This document shows positions 21,883 to 55,543 of a stretch of 64,000 nt of DNA, piece by piece. Source of the stretch: Syntrophaceae bacterium. GTDB taxonomy: Bacteria; Desulfobacterota; Syntrophia; Syntrophales; Smithellaceae. Each line of letters begins with the position of its first letter. The first letter of the stretch is position 1. The translations under genes and the position numbers were made by a program. The notes under the pieces were generated by a model. It was not told where the DNA came from. It saw only the letters and a program-made list of their open reading frames with translations, and did no database searches. The stretch is taken from the NCBI GenBank assembly GCA_009773315.1, contig WRPE01000001.1, forward strand, positions 62,001 to 126,000. The letters run 5' to 3'.

Positions 21883-23058
21883 TTAAATATTAACAGAAGG
21901 CAAGCACTGTTGCGGCTCGCCGAGCAGGAATTTGCCGCTTTCGATCCAGTCTTTCAGGATATTGGCAATTTGATTGGCCTTGTAATAACTGGACAAAGGA
22001 GCGGTGATGACTTTTTTATCGTCGATGATAATCGCGCCGCTACGCAGATCCTTATAAGTAACCTCCGCTATAGGTTTGGAGTTGCCTTTGGGATAGTCCA
22101 TACTGTAATCATAAACCTGAGCGTAAATATCTGCGTCTTTCACAGCGGTGAAGCGCGCCATGCCTTCATCCAGAACAGGAATGGGAATACCAATACCGAC
22201 AAACAGCGAAATACCGTAACCTAAAATACTGGCGCCGGTCAGCCATTCGGGGCTCATTTCCTTTAAATTACCAATGACGGCTATGGTGCCTGCGCCCTCT
22301 TTGGGTACACCATTAGGACCTCTTGCCACATTGGGATTATGCTGCGTGCCCGGCCAGGCCACAAACCCTTGCGCTCCACCTAAAAATATCCGCGTGCCGA
22401 TACCAATCGTGCGGTAGTAAGGATCATTAAACAAAGGACTCAACTGGCCTGCCGTCGCATAAGATGCATTGGCCATTCGCGGTCGCAGCATGCCCATATA
22501 GGTATAGATGGTGGTATCCGACATGTTTACGGCACAATTATAGTTTTGATAGGCATTACGCGGATTGAATAAAACGGCGTCTCTCAGATCGTTGATGGTG
22601 ATATTTTTTTCAAATTTGCGTGACGGGTAGCAATCAGTGCCATAGCCCTCAGCTCTTAGCTTCACAGCGTTGCCAGCCACCAGGTCTTCAATCACATGGC
22701 CGCCGCCATAATTGAACTCGCCGGGATAAACACTGTTTTGCGGATCACCCTCCACCACTTCCGTGGCGCCCAAATAACAATCCACGGCCGCGATGCCGCC
22801 GTAAGCCGGCACATCGTTGAGCCATACTTTGGAAGCCCGGATACGCGGAGAGGTATGGCCGAAATTGAGAAAAGCCCCCGAAGAACACATCGCGCCGAAT
22901 GTTCCGGTGGTAACAACGTCAATCCGCCGCGCCGCTTCCACGTCGCCATGCTTTTCCACGACATCGATCATTTCTTCAGCGGTGACGACAACGGCGCGTC
23001 CCTGCTTGATCTTTTCATTGATTTCCTGAAATGTTTTTTTAACTTTGTGTTTTTTCAT
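21883..23058 (-). CDS. DUF39 (COG1900) homocysteine biosynthesis protein, without fused CBS or ferredoxin domains
   Basis: TTGTFGAMCSSGAFLNFGHTSPRIRASKVWLNDVPAYGGIAAVDCYLGATE; VYPGEFNYGGGHVIEDLVAG. Confidence 0.85.
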   Translation of the reverse strand: MKKHKVKKTFQEINEKIKQGRAVVVTAEEMIDVVEKHGDVEAARRIDVVTTGTFGAMCSSGAFLNFGHTSPRIRASKVWLNDVPAYGGIAAVDCYLGATEVVEGDPQNSVYPGEFNYGGGHVIEDLVAGNAVKLRAEGYGTDCYPSRKFEKNITINDLRDAVLFNPRNAYQNYNCAVNMSDTTIYTYMGMLRPRMANASYATAGQLSPLFNDPYYRTIGIGTRIFLGGAQGFVAWPGTQHNPNVARGPNGVPKEGAGTIAVIGNLKEMSPEWLTGASILGYGISLFVGIGIPIPVLDEGMARFTAVKDADIYAQVYDYSMDYPKGNSKPIAEVTYKDLRSGAIIIDDKKVITAPLSSYYKANQIANILKDWIESGKFLLGEPQQCLPSVNI

Positions 23059-23130
23059 GAACCAGTCTTATTGATACGATTTTGTTTTTCATACCACTGT
23101 TTAAAGACAAATGCAAAATGCTAGAAACAC

Positions 23131-33172: not shown

Positions 33173-33247
33173 TGGAGCGGGCGACCGGGCTCGAACCGGC
33201 GACGTCCAGCTTGGGAAGCTGACATTCTACCACTGAATTACGCCCGC
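33173..33247 (-). tRNA. tRNA-Gly (anticodon CCC), encoded CCA
   Basis: GCGGGCGTAATTCAGTGGTAGAATGTCAGCTTCCCAAGCTGGACGTCGCCGGTTCGAGCCCGGTCGCCCGCTCCA: full cloverleaf, loop TTCCCAA. Confidence 0.95.
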
Positions 33248-50228: not shown

Positions 50229-50257
50229 TGCCTCTTGACAAGCGGGGCTTTTTTCGT
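50229..50257 (+). terminator. Possible terminator of the PBP gene
   Basis: GCCTC...GGGGC short stem followed by TTTTTT; overlaps the candidate ilv promoter. Confidence 0.4.
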
Positions 50258-50263
50258 TAAAAG
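50235..50263 (+). promoter_or_regulatory. Candidate sigma-70 promoter of the ilv leader
   Basis: TTGACA - 17 nt - TAAAAG. Confidence 0.55.
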
Positions 50264-50289
50264 AAAGACAAATTCAACAGGAAGTCATT

Positions 50290-50394
50290 ATGTTTCTTAA
50301 AGATTTAGACAGTGGCAGAATTCAAATACAAGCCTATGTAAGATTGCTCGTCGTAGTAGTCGTACTTATGGGGTCTGCCGCCCGGTATCTTTAA
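50290..50394 (+). CDS. ilv leader peptide MFLKDLDSGRIQIQAYVRLLVVVVVLMGSAARYL (34 aa)
   Basis: ATG preceded by AGGAAG; 14 of 34 residues are Ile/Leu/Val including LLVVVVVL; followed by a terminator and ilvBNCD. Confidence 0.85.
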   Translation: MFLKDLDSGRIQIQAYVRLLVVVVVLMGSAARYL

Positions 50395-50407
50395 GAAAAA
50401 AGATATC

Positions 50408-50442
50408 AGCCGCGGGCCCCGAAAAGCCCGCGGCTTTGTTTT
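50408..50442 (+). terminator. Attenuator terminator of the ilv leader
   Basis: AGCCGCGGGC-CCCGAAAA-GCCCGCGGCT followed by TTGTTTT. Confidence 0.85.
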
Positions 50443-50450
50443 ATAGACAC

Positions 50451-50487
50451 AAAGCCGCTTTTTCCTAAAAGAAACTGGCGGCTTTTT
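50451..50487 (+). terminator. Second terminator-like hairpin in the ilv leader
   Basis: AAAGCCGC...GCGGCTTT with TTTTT; its 5' arm is also complementary to 50430-50439. Confidence 0.6.
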
Positions 50488-50548
50488 CAGTTTTTAAAGG
50501 CTGTTGGATACATTTGATAAGTAAAATATAATGGAGGAGTCAAAAAAC

Positions 50549-52252
50549 ATGAAGTTGAAAGGCACGCAAATCCTGCTGGAGGTGCTTAAAGAAGAAAATG
50601 TTGACATTATCTTTGGCTATCCGGGCGGGACGGTCCTGGACATTTATGATCAACTATATAAAAGCGACCTCAAACATATTTTAGTGCGTCACGAACAGGG
50701 CGCGGTGCATGCCGCCGACGGCTACGCACGCGCAACCGGTAAGGTCGGTGTCTGTCTGGTAACATCCGGCCCGGGCGCCACCAATACCGTCACCGGCATT
50801 GCCACGGCGAATATGGATTCCATCCCCCTGGTGGTTTTTACCGGACAGGTGCCGACCGGCCTCATCGGAAACGACGCATTTCAGGAATGCGACATTACCG
50901 GCATCACGCGACCCTGCACCAAACACAATTTTCTGGTGCGCAACATCGAAGAGTTGGCCTCGACGATTAAAGAAGCTTTTCATATCGCCCGCTCCGGAAG
51001 ACCGGGACCGGTGCTGGTTGATCTGCCCAAAGACGTTATGGCCACGCAAACCGACTATGATCCGGCCAATGTCAAATTCCGTAATTATGAAGTAGCGCAC
51101 AAACCGGCGCCCAAAAAAATGGCCAAAGTGTTTGATATGCTCCAAGCCGCTAAAAAACCATTAATCATAACCGGCGGCGGCGTCATCCTCGGTAAGGCAT
51201 CTGAAGAATTAACCCACTTATCGCGAAAATACCAGATTCCCGTGACCGGCACACTGATGAGCCTCGGGTCGTTTCCGGGCAGTGATGCCTTGTGGCTGGG
51301 TATGCTGGGCATGCACGGCACGTATTACGCAAATATGGCGGTCAGCCACTGCGATTTCCTGCTGGCCGTGGGCGTCAGGTTCGACGACCGCGTGACCGGC
51401 ACGATTGAAACTTTCGCCGCCAACGCCAAGATTGTCCATATTGATATTGATCCTTCTTCCATTAATAAAAATGTTACCGTTGATCTGCCGATTATCGGTG
51501 ATACCAAAGCGACGCTCAAGGATCTCCTGCGCTTTCTCGAAGAACATCACTATGCACAGGATGCTGCCTCGCGGAAAACGTGGCTTGACGAAATTGACGA
51601 ATGGCGGGAAAGAGTGCCCCTGACTTACTGTCAGAACGGCGAAGTCATCAAACCGCAATACGTTATTGAAACCCTGCATAAACTCACCTGCGGCGATGCC
51701 CTGATCACAACGGAAGTCGGCCAGAATCAAATGTGGACGGCGCAGTTTTTCCAGTTTGATCGTCCCAATTCTTTTATTTCTTCCGGGGGCTTAGGCACCA
51801 TGGGTTTTGGACTGCCCGCGGCTATCGGCGTCAAATGCGCATTCCCCGATAAGCACGTGGTGGATATCGCCGGCGACGGCAGCATCCAGATGAATATTCA
51901 AGAACTGGCGACGGCCGCCCAGTATAATATCGCCGTGAAGATCGTCCTGTTAAATAACGGTTATCTGGGAATGGTGCGTCAGTGGCAGGAATTGTTTTAT
52001 GAAAAACGCTATTCACATACCGATATGACTTACGCGCCGGATTTCGTGAAGCTGGCGGAGGCTTTCGGCATCATCGGCCTGCGCGCGACCAAGCCTTCCG
52101 AAGTGGAAGCTGTGTTGAAGCAAGGACTTTCCGTCAACAAGCCCGTATTGATGGACTTCCGTGTGTCACGAGAGGAATGCGTCTATCCCATGGTGCGTCC
52201 GGGCGAGTCGATCAGCCAGATGACGCTGGGATCGAGAGAAATGATCAATTAA
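50549..52252 (+). CDS. ilvB: Acetolactate synthase large subunit
   Basis: IIFGYPGGTVLDIYDQLY, HEQGAVHAADGYARATGKVGVCLVTSGPGATN. Start MKLKG preceded by GGAGGAG. Confidence 0.96.
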   Translation: MKLKGTQILLEVLKEENVDIIFGYPGGTVLDIYDQLYKSDLKHILVRHEQGAVHAADGYARATGKVGVCLVTSGPGATNTVTGIATANMDSIPLVVFTGQVPTGLIGNDAFQECDITGITRPCTKHNFLVRNIEELASTIKEAFHIARSGRPGPVLVDLPKDVMATQTDYDPANVKFRNYEVAHKPAPKKMAKVFDMLQAAKKPLIITGGGVILGKASEELTHLSRKYQIPVTGTLMSLGSFPGSDALWLGMLGMHGTYYANMAVSHCDFLLAVGVRFDDRVTGTIETFAANAKIVHIDIDPSSINKNVTVDLPIIGDTKATLKDLLRFLEEHHYAQDAASRKTWLDEIDEWRERVPLTYCQNGEVIKPQYVIETLHKLTCGDALITTEVGQNQMWTAQFFQFDRPNSFISSGGLGTMGFGLPAAIGVKCAFPDKHVVDIAGDGSIQMNIQELATAAQYNIAVKIVLLNNGYLGMVRQWQELFYEKRYSHTDMTYAPDFVKLAEAFGIIGLRATKPSEVEAVLKQGLSVNKPVLMDFRVSREECVYPMVRPGESISQMTLGSREMIN

Positions 52253-52279: not shown

Positions 52280-52765
52280 ATGGAAAAAAAGGCGCATGTC
52301 ATTTCAATTCTGGTGCACAATAAACCCGATGTGCTGGCCAGAATTGCCGGCACATTAGGCGGCAAAGGCTATAACATTGACAGCCTTTGCGTGAATACGA
52401 CAACACAAAACGACATATCGAAAATTGTGATGACCACCGCAGGGTCACAAGCGACCATCACCCGGATTGAAAATCAGCTGCAAAGACTGGTTGATGTAAT
52501 TTCCGTCGATGACCTGACCAATGTTGAATCGATTTATCGCGAAATGGTTCTGGTCCGGCTGAATCTGACGGCCCAGAATTCAGAACCGGTAAAAAAGGCT
52601 ATTGACATGAATAAATGGAAAGTAATAGTGTCGGGCGACAAGTATGTTATTGTCGAAATAACGGGAGATAAAACACAAATTGATTTTTCTCTGGCACGCC
52701 TGGAATCGCTCGGCATTACGGATATAACTCGAACAGGCCTTATCGCCTTGAAATTGGAAGATTAA
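52280..52765 (+). CDS. ilvN: Acetolactate synthase small subunit
   Basis: ISILVHNKPDVLARIAGTLGGKGYNIDSLCV (ACT domain). Confidence 0.95.
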   Translation: MEKKAHVISILVHNKPDVLARIAGTLGGKGYNIDSLCVNTTTQNDISKIVMTTAGSQATITRIENQLQRLVDVISVDDLTNVESIYREMVLVRLNLTAQNSEPVKKAIDMNKWKVIVSGDKYVIVEITGDKTQIDFSLARLESLGITDITRTGLIALKLED

Positions 52766-52817: not shown

Positions 52818-53885
52818 ATGGCAAAAATTAATTTCGGTGGTACGATGGAAGATGTGGTGACCTCAGAAGAGTTCACGGTGAAAAAAGCACAGGAAGTTCT
52901 TAAAAAAGAAGTGATCGCGGTGCTGGGTTATGGGGTTCAAGGTCCCGCGCAGGCTTTTAATATGAAAGACAACGGCGTCAACGTCATTATTGGCCAGACC
53001 AAGGAAGATAAAGTATATTGGGATAAGGCCATTGCCGACGGCTGGGTGCCCGGCCAGACGCTTTTCCCGATTGAAGAAGCGGTGGAGAAAGCAACCATCA
53101 TTCAATATCTGGTTTCCGATGCGGCGCAGATGATCCTCTGGCCGAAAGTCAAACCGCACCTGAAAAAAGGCGATGCGCTCTACTTCTCGCACGGCTTTTC
53201 CATCGTTTATAAAGAACAGACCGGTGTCATTCCGCCTGATTTTGTCGATGTGATTCTGGTCGCGCCCAAGGGATCGGGAACCAGCGTCCGCCGTAATTTT
53301 GTTGACGGCAGCGGCATTAACTCCAGCTTTGCTGTTCATCAGGATGCAACCGGCCGCGCGATGGAACGCACGCTGGCTTTGGGTATCGCCATCGGCTCCG
53401 GGTTTTTATTCCCGACCACTTTCCAGATGGAAGTTTACAGTGATCTGACCGGCGAACGCGGTGTTCTCATGGGTGCGCTTGCCGGCATGATGGAGGCGCA
53501 ATACGCCGAACTTAGGCGTCACGGCCACACACCCAGTGAAGCCTTCAACGAGACGGTGGAGGAACTCACGCAGAGCCTGATCCGCCTGGTCGGCGAAAAC
53601 GGGATGGACTGGATGTACGCCAACTGCTCGGCTACCGCGCAACGCGGCGCTCTGGACTGGCGGCACAAATTCCGCAAAGCGGTAGAGCCCGTCTTCGCCG
53701 AACTCTATAATTCCGTCGCTACCGGCAAGGAAACCGAAGTGGTTCTGCGTGTGAACAGCGCGCCGGACTACAAAGAAAAGCTCAACGCCGAGCTCAAGGA
53801 AATGCGCGAATCCGAAATGTGGCAGGCGGGCGTGGCCGTGCGATCGTTGAGACCGGAAAAAAGAAATAAGGGAGATAACCAATGA
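52818..53885 (+). CDS. ilvC: Ketol-acid reductoisomerase
   Basis: [56 protein letters not shown]. Confidence 0.95.
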
Positions 53886-55543
53886 GAAGCGATCTCATGA
53901 AAAAAGGACTGGAGCGGGCGCCACACCGGTCGCTCTTTAAAGCCATGGGTTATACTGATGAAGAAATTGCGCGCCCGTTGATCGGCGTGGTTAATTCCGC
54001 CAATGAAATTATACCCGGGCATATCCATCTGGACTTAATTACCCAGGATGTTAAGGCGGGAATCCGCATGACGGGCGGCACGCCGGTGGAATTTCCGGTC
54101 ATCGGTGTTTGCGACGGCATTGCCATGGGGCACGCGGGTATGAAATATTCACTCGCCAGCCGCGAGCTGATCGCCGATTCCATTGAAATCATGGCCATGG
54201 CCCACCCGTTTGACGCGCTCGTTTTCATTCCCAATTGCGATAAAATTATTCCCGGCATGCTGATGGCGGCGCTCAGACTCAACATTCCCTGCATTTTCAT
54301 CAGCGGCGGACCGATGCTCGCGGGGAAGCTTCATGGCAAAGCCGTTGACCTCATCTCGGTGTTTGAAGGCGTCGGCGCGGTGAAAGCCAAAAAGATGACA
54401 GTCTCTGACTTGCAACAACTTGAAGACTGCGCTTGTCCCGGCTGCGGGTCCTGCTCCGGCATGTTCACCGCCAACTCTATGAACTGCGTTACCGAAGCGC
54501 TGGGGCTCGGGCTTCCCGGACACGGCACGATTCCGGCCATACTTGCCGCGCGTCATCGCCTGGCTAAATACGCGGGCATGAAAATTATGGATTTGTTTAA
54601 AAAGGGCGTCAAGCCACGCGATATTGCGACGCTCGCTGCGTTTAAAAACGCCATAGCTGTCGATATGGCGCTGGGTTGTTCCACCAATACCGTCTTGCAC
54701 ATTCCGGCCATTGCTCATGAAGCGGGCATCAGGCTTGGTTTAGATCTCTTCAATAAAATCAGCGAGAAAACACCGAACATTTGCAAATTGAGTCCGGCCG
54801 GTCATCACCATATCGAAGATCTGGATTCGGCGGGCGGCATTCAAGCGGTGATGAAGACGATCAGCCCGTTGGGCGTCATTGATGAAAAGGCAATGACCGT
54901 ATCGGGAAAAACAGCAGGGGCAAATTTTAAAAGCGCCCGCGTTTTGAATAATGATGTCATTCGGCCCTTAAACAATCCGTATTCCAAACAAGGCGGTATT
55001 GCTATTTTGCGCGGCAACCTCGCACCGGACGGCGGCGTGGTGAAACAATCCGCGGTGGCTCAAGCCATGCAGATAAACGAAGGCAAGGCCCGCGTGTTCG
55101 ATTGCGAAGACGACGCTATCGCGGCGATCTTAGGTGGAAAGATTAAAGGCGGTGACATTGTGGTTATCCGCTATGAAGGTCCCAAGGGCGGCCCGGGTAT
55201 GCGCGAGATGCTTTCGCCCACCTCGGCGATTGTCGGCATGGGTTTGGATAAGACCGTTGCGTTGCTCACCGACGGACGTTTCAGCGGCGGCACCCAGGGC
55301 GCGGCTATCGGCCATATCTCGCCGGAGGCGGCGGAAGGCGGTCCGATTGCGCTGGTTAAGGAAGGTGATATCATTGCCATTGATATTCCGGCCAAAAAGC
55401 TGAATTTGAAAGTCAGTGAAGCAGAACTTGATAAACGCAGAAAAGCCTTAAAACCTCGTCAACCCGCCATTACCAGCGGCTATCTGGCACGCTACGCGAA
55501 AATGGTCACATCCGCCTCGACGGGAGCGGTGTTTAAAGATTAA
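53882..55543 (+). CDS. ilvD: Dihydroxy-acid dehydratase
   Basis: [69 protein letters not shown] overlap with ilvC. Confidence 0.97.

Follow-up and report, generated by a model that had tools for sequence, protein, structure and literature searches.

We examined if the region upstream of the ilvBNCD operon in a Syntrophaceae bacterium (Smithellaceae; GCA_009773315.1, contig WRPE01000001.1) holds an attenuator and, if so, of what design. The 64,000-nt stretch of DNA that was analysed is called the window, and all positions are window coordinates (Table 1). The nearest named relatives of its ilvB (a Syntrophaceae MAG, Smithella sp. SDB_sulfate1 and Smithella sp. SCADC) point to the Smithella lineage. 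The gene ilvB was located in 52/59 relatives, and 33 loci of Smithella and kin, within Syntrophales (hereafter the family), were compared. Our reading, which we hold with good confidence, is that the leader is a ribosome-mediated transcription attenuator of ilvBNCD sensing charged tRNA-Val, with six RNA segments and two tandem intrinsic terminators. As modelled, it is classical peptide-mediated attenuation with his-like topology, in a tandem-terminator variant, and the regulation is predicted. The first-pass annotation had proposed ribosome-mediated attenuation of the operon via a Val leader; this was still the best reading, and both leader and Val run were conserved in the family. The promoter and Shine-Dalgarno sequence were also as it had claimed, and were read in the sequence (TTGACA 50235-50240, 17-nt spacer, TAAAAG 50258-50263). 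TTGACA was present in 31/32 family leaders, the remaining leader having an N gap there, and a Shine-Dalgarno-like purine stretch lay upstream of most family leader ORFs. The sole Rfam hit at the gathering threshold across the whole window was a tRNA gene at 33176-33247 on the minus strand.

Table 1. Features of the ilvBNCD leader and operon, in window coordinates
Feature	Position	Strand	Basis or remark
Sigma-70-type promoter TTGACA-N17-TAAAAG	50235..50263	+	read directly
Shine-Dalgarno AGGAAG for leader ORF	50279..50284	+	sequence
Leader peptide ORF, 34 aa, MFLKDLDSGRIQIQAYVRLLVVVVVLMGSAARYL	50290..50394	+	ORF translation; intact in 32/33 family loci
Segment 1, arms 50293-50304 and 50312-50318	50293..50318	+	pairs with segment 2 as protector helix 1:2, -20.1 kcal/mol
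Control codons GTC GTA GTA GTC GTA (5 Val)	50350..50364	+	sequence; Val run kept in family
Segment 2, GGGGUCUGCCGC..GUAUCUUU(AAGAAA)	50370..50398	+	overlaps leader end and stop codon; partner is segment 1 or 3
Segment 3	50399..50420	+	partner is segment 2 (antiterminator 2:3, -27.1 kcal/mol) or segment 4
Terminator 1 (3:4), stem 50408-50417/50426-50435 and U tract	50408..50443	+	-22.6 kcal/mol
Relay helix 4:5, 50430-50439 with 50449-50458	50430..50458	+	-15.8 kcal/mol; excludes both terminators
Terminator 2 (5:6), outer 50451-50458/50478-50485, inner 50461-50464/50471-50474, U tract	50451..50490	+	-13.0 kcal/mol
ilvB, acetolactate synthase large subunit (TIGR00118)	50549..52252	+	family match
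ilvN, AHAS small subunit	52280..52765	+	family match
ilvC, ketol-acid reductoisomerase	52818..53885	+	family match
ilvD, dihydroxy-acid dehydratase	53882..55543	+	family match

The coordinates first given for the 34-aa ORF and its five Val codons agreed with the sequence and its translation. The ORF has a putative ribosome-binding site and candidate control codons for the product of the operon, as is expected of an attenuator. GTA, which fills three of the five positions in the run, is the rare Val codon locally: across six genes of the window it accounts for 9% of 219 Val codons. A run that mixes GTC and GTA probably draws on both Val isoacceptors. Were 33 residues drawn at random with Val as frequent as it is locally, VVVVV would occur with P ~8e-5. 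Val is the main signal, and Leu and Ile merely flank the run; the earlier description of a Leu/Val leader thus held for its Val run, which is present and conserved, but not for Leu as a main signal.

That proposal had staked itself on leader and Val run being found in orthologous leaders, and when relatives were aligned both were conserved. The element was carried by 33/33 family loci, with leader, Val run and pairing RNA arms retained in 32 of them; the longest Val run was 3-5 in 31/32 intact leaders. The sole exception, L010 (G017:C262, upstream of ilvB), keeps segments 2-6 and has lost segment 1 along with the leader start and a portion of the peptide; in this fragmented MAG the deletion reflects natural mutation or misassembly. 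Counted from the ATG to the last codon of the run, length was the same modulo 3 in 32/32 aligned leaders, whereas lengths from the run to the terminator were spread over all three frames (13/4/15 leaders), and nucleotides GGGGUCUGCCGC..GUAUCUUUAAG were retained even where they encode other tails (GSAALYL, GLPLRIFKK, GSAALCIFKK). The run must therefore be translated, and the remainder matters as RNA: on the evidence of these alignments, coding constraint ends at the control codons and RNA constraint takes over there. These results bear upon a different explanation, that the short ORF is a functional small protein, or that an sRNA is the product, with hairpins that just end that transcript. The ORF is indeed well conserved, and leader peptides can work in trans, e.g., peTrpL (PMC7298713); however, its C-terminus shifts frame freely while the nucleotides stay, and homologous elements (described below) encode unrelated peptides whose runs (W, F/Y, L or V) fit the next gene, and we consider a small-protein or sRNA function highly improbable.

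The attenuator leader is a chain of six segments, each of which pairs with its neighbours (1:2, 2:3, 3:4, 4:5 and 5:6). Protector helix 1:2 ties the leader start to the leader stop by pairing UUUCUUAAAGAU, directly after the AUG, with AUCUUUAAGAAA at the stop codon; a second part of this helix pairs GUGGCAG with CUGCCGC. The full antiterminator 2:3 joins 50370-50381 with 50409-50420 (11/12 pairs, one C-C mismatch) and 50385-50392 with 50399-50406, and the arms of relay helix 4:5 are GCGGCUUUGU and ACAAAGCCGC. The first-pass annotation had placed the terminator 1 stem and its U tract right to the base, and an intrinsic terminator thus lies between leader ORF and ilvB, as in other attenuators. 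Its competing pairing, 50380-50392/50399-50417, was correct in kind but too short, and it had missed protector helix 1:2, the second terminator (50451-50485) and the 4:5 link between terminators.

All five helices had 90-99% of family cells paired, compared to 42-55% when whole termination or antitermination structures were slid 1-3 columns. The outer stem of terminator 2 reached 99%, and protector helix 1:2 reached 90% vs 44-53% for the slid termination structure (a whole-structure figure). Double changes in the termination structure occurred in 11 cells vs 2.8 in shuffles, and 0/500 shuffles had as many. The antitermination structure (2:3, 4:5), the arms of which barely vary, did not beat the letter-shuffle control within the family, and a broader sample of sequences improved the covariation evidence only in part. 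The C-C mismatch within the antiterminator helix (50379/50411) was invariant in 32/32 aligned family leaders; as the same nucleotides are needed in 1:2 and 3:4, the imperfect pairing may be what leaves the switch reversible.

To the anatomy, the conservation and the mutually exclusive pairings, folding added a predicted switch. In the absence of a ribosome, 1:2 would lock segment 2 away and both terminators would form. When valine is scarce a ribosome would stall in the GUC/GUA run, and segment 2 would be free for segment 3 before segment 4 emerges; freed segment 4 would then pair with segment 5, terminator 2 would also fail, and polymerase would enter ilvB. What we infer in this scheme is that the leader is translated, that ribosomes stall, that transcription does end at the terminators and that the system responds to valine. 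Folding with and without a ribosome footprint, a check suggested along with the first-pass annotation, gave predicted structures that switched with ribosome position: the RNA without a ribosome formed 1:2 and both terminators (-76.1 kcal/mol); a ribosome placed on the stop codon likewise allowed both terminators to form; and with the ribosome stalled at the second Val codon 2:3 formed, then 4:5 once segment 5 was made (read-through). The antiterminator is thus predicted in silico to be mutually exclusive and dependent on ribosome position, as in attenuators generally. The leader was 5.7 sd more stable than dinucleotide shuffles (z -5.7; 0/200 shuffles as stable), and the same fold switch was obtained in 80-100% of elements for most gene classes (86 elements tested). 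At equilibrium, RNA ending at 50444 in the stalled state favoured terminator 1 (-35.9) over 2:3 alone (-28.1), so that bypass of terminator 1 must be kinetic; 2:3 was complete about 15 nt before terminator 1, and with 4:5 in place the read-through fold became the favoured structure (-47.1 by 50470). The stalled ribosome would sit in the 1:2 loop, leaving segment 1 uncovered, and disruption of 1:2 would be steric.

We judge the 4:5 relay to be the least certain step of the mechanism. Two U-tailed hairpins (strict hairpin rule) were present in 86/96 elements, and duplication could account for the similarity of terminators 1 and 2. A generic terminator consensus was rejected as the cause of their likeness, the GCCGC/GCCGU stem being found in just 2/26 strong terminators (one of which is the trpE attenuator). 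It could be argued that only one terminator is regulated, terminator 2 being a redundant or partly effective stop that is alike by duplication and 4:5 a by-product, for if one stem resembles another, complementarity in 4:5 follows of itself. Trp leaders with a single terminator do occur in the phylum: in a sample of trpE loci drawn independently of the model described below, about 14/22 Trp leaders had two terminators and 8/22 had one (judged by eye). The existence of the latter means that the second terminator is dispensable to attenuation in general, the tandem form being common but optional. In addition, swapping segment 5 between gene classes cost little in the LivK and aroG classes. Nevertheless, an unconditional terminator 2 would hold the operon off under scarce valine, and in the 359 kb of this genome that were scanned, which hold 26 strong terminators, there was no other tandem pair. 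The 4:5 energy of the window pair was -18.1 by duplexfold, with means near -16 across the elements, whereas random pairs of genomic terminators gave -7.0 +/- 3.5, and 0.8% reached -18. Moreover, 4:5 reaches past the terminator 1 stem into the U tract, and one pair beyond that stem shows compensatory changes (GC 18, UA 4, UG 3); the link is kept in stems of differing sequence (GCCGC vs GCCGUG); and swaps of segment 5 showed a clear native-partner preference, though only in trpE, ADTH and single cases. Regulation of a single terminator is, on this evidence, unlikely. The reading that we lean towards, with some reserve, is that tandem-terminator relay attenuators are a distinct phylum-wide Desulfobacterota architecture, in which one stall, via 2:3 then 4:5, disarms two serial terminators, and in which the module is fitted with Val, Leu, Trp or Phe/Tyr sensor peptides before biosynthetic and transport genes.

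The distribution of the module was followed with a covariance model of segments 2-6, trained on 32 ilvB leaders only, with the coding run left out. It matched 145/155 Syntrophales genomes, with many matches away from the original ilvB: before a second AHAS paralogue, before trpE and before Peripla_BP_6 transporter proteins. Leaders before the second AHAS paralogue carry Val runs (..GTAARFL), those before trpE include MKTAIKILTLNNWWWWNLTGRLIRR, and Phe-run leaders, e.g., MIRQIGNIANSGFFFSFFSFFGEVCRPRS, precede the Peripla_BP_6 proteins. In other Syntrophales families a Val element lies before the second AHAS large subunit (GADIVLQ.. type) at L168-L175, L178, L179, L181, L185 and L186; in genomes G053 and G055 the other ilvB, with a single-terminator leader of its own, lies ~2.7 kb downstream of the Val element. 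The genome of the window has trpE with the same two-terminator element (L161; G000:C5:7046-7174, minus strand) and leader MKKIAVTFNLNSGWWWSLTGRIFRR; its weak model hits L162 (a glutamate-dehydrogenase-like locus), L163 and L167 were judged to be plain terminators. At L180, L182, L183, L184, L191, L192, L196, L197, L273 and L276, genes for Peripla_BP_6-type ABC transporter binding proteins follow tandem-terminator leaders that have Phe or Tyr runs. Such leaders predict that these binding proteins serve aromatic, not branched-chain, amino-acid uptake.

Outside Syntrophales, 43 of ~379 phylum genomes matched at E <= 0.001. The downstream genes there were leuA, leuB, ilvB, trpE, aroG-type and other DAHP synthases, ADTH synthase, 3-dehydroquinate synthase II, class I/II aminotransferases and a tryptophan-synthase-like PLP enzyme. 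A cognate-type codon run was present in leaders of 41/46 examined extra-order hits, none of which was used in model training, compared to 3.4 (max 7) in dinucleotide shuffles. Trp runs numbered 14 (vs 0.08 in shuffles) and Phe/Tyr runs 21 (vs 0.2); the Val/Ile/Leu and Leu classes taken alone were less decisive (8 each vs 1.1 and 2.6). Four hits (L228, L264, L275, L277) were without a convincing leader, and L251 had a codon run and no clear gene.

Rfam families, including the His, Trp, Leu and Thr leaders, gave no match at the gathering cut-off for the window leader or 20 other loci, nor did a T-box covariance model; a permissive Rfam threshold yielded merely chance sub-threshold matches. This argues against another kind of leader mechanism (T-box, riboswitch or protein-binding attenuator) to which the ORF would be incidental. 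A leader position and alternative folds, as seen here, are common to all such systems, but the frame conserved up to the Val run and the cognate runs elsewhere favour ribosome sensing, and we give such a mechanism almost no weight.

In comparing the putative ribosome-sensing leader with known systems, the E. coli ilvGMEDA, ilvBN and leu attenuators are alike in having branched-chain codons in a leader peptide upstream of ilv genes; they differ in that the leader described here matches none of them by sequence or Rfam and has tandem terminators, and that its run, unlike theirs, is nearly all Val. Attenuation of E. coli ilv/leu type, as first suggested, was thus right as to the kind of system, whereas the topology is a six-segment, his-like one with two terminators and not a four-segment switch. 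The his attenuator of E. coli/Salmonella is likewise a six-segment chain with alternate pairing, the outcome of which is decided by a ribosome on successive control codons (PMC10989985, PMC1183508); its stem-loops AB/CD/EF alternate with BC/DE, with uridines after EF only (PMC10989985). In the window 1:2/3:4/5:6 alternates with 2:3/4:5 in the same manner, but both 3:4 and 5:6 have U tracts, so that the middle hairpin is also an intrinsic terminator and two terminators are switched; the amino acid and gene also differ, and Rfam His_leader did not match. The Corynebacterium ilvBNC attenuator (ilvB-II motif), with mutation-tested antiantiterminator, antiterminator and terminator hairpins, shares the protector-antiterminator-terminator logic before ilvB and a Val/Leu leader, but has one terminator and differs in sequence and phylum (PMC11857589). 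In the literature searched, a tandem second terminator was described only for the rimP-leader of Gammaproteobacteria, which has a possible antiterminator as well but is without link to an amino-acid leader peptide or amino-acid operon (PMC2965389).

Leader-peptide attenuation has been described for gamma-proteobacteria, Actinobacteria and some Firmicutes (literature searched, including PMC3766115 and PMC2965389). An RNA regulon survey suggested a possible gamma-proteobacterial origin of amino-acid attenuators, transfers being very rare, and pointed out that Rfam had no Ile/Val or Phe attenuator (PMC3766115). From the present matches, leader-peptide attenuators appear near-universal in Syntrophales and frequent elsewhere in Desulfobacterota, with at least four amino-acid classes. 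Our search for tandem-terminator attenuators or Desulfovibrio leader peptides returned nothing; Lopatovskaya et al. 2010 (Mol Biol 44:128; cited in PMC4833913), reportedly a broad attenuation survey, lay outside that search and may list some leaders. Within the literature and databases searched, what is new is the chain of tandem terminators and the way in which it is reused, with differing sensor peptides, across the phylum; the tandem design before Trp, Phe/Tyr, Leu and Val genes is in none of the RNA-family databases searched. The extra hairpin of the his operon has been argued to give very low basal read-through (PMC1183508), and tandem terminators are a testable means by which leaders of this kind might attain it. 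The covariance model is ready for annotating Desulfobacterota genomes.

Two further leader types were seen. In the genome of the window, model hit 22993-23113 on G000:C82 (L164) has a citramalate synthase gene (TIGR00977, Ile pathway) after an Ile-rich leader, MNTFLIRQIIITYIIICFPIGALAVE, with a single terminator and a possible antiterminator pairing CCTGGCTGTGG with CCGCTGCCAGG. A second, unrelated ilvB leader type has an Ile/Val-rich peptide, often with a GAG* end, then GGTGATGG and the single terminator AACCGTTACC..GGTAACGGTT; it was found at L036, L037, L040-L044, L046-L050, L072 and L088.
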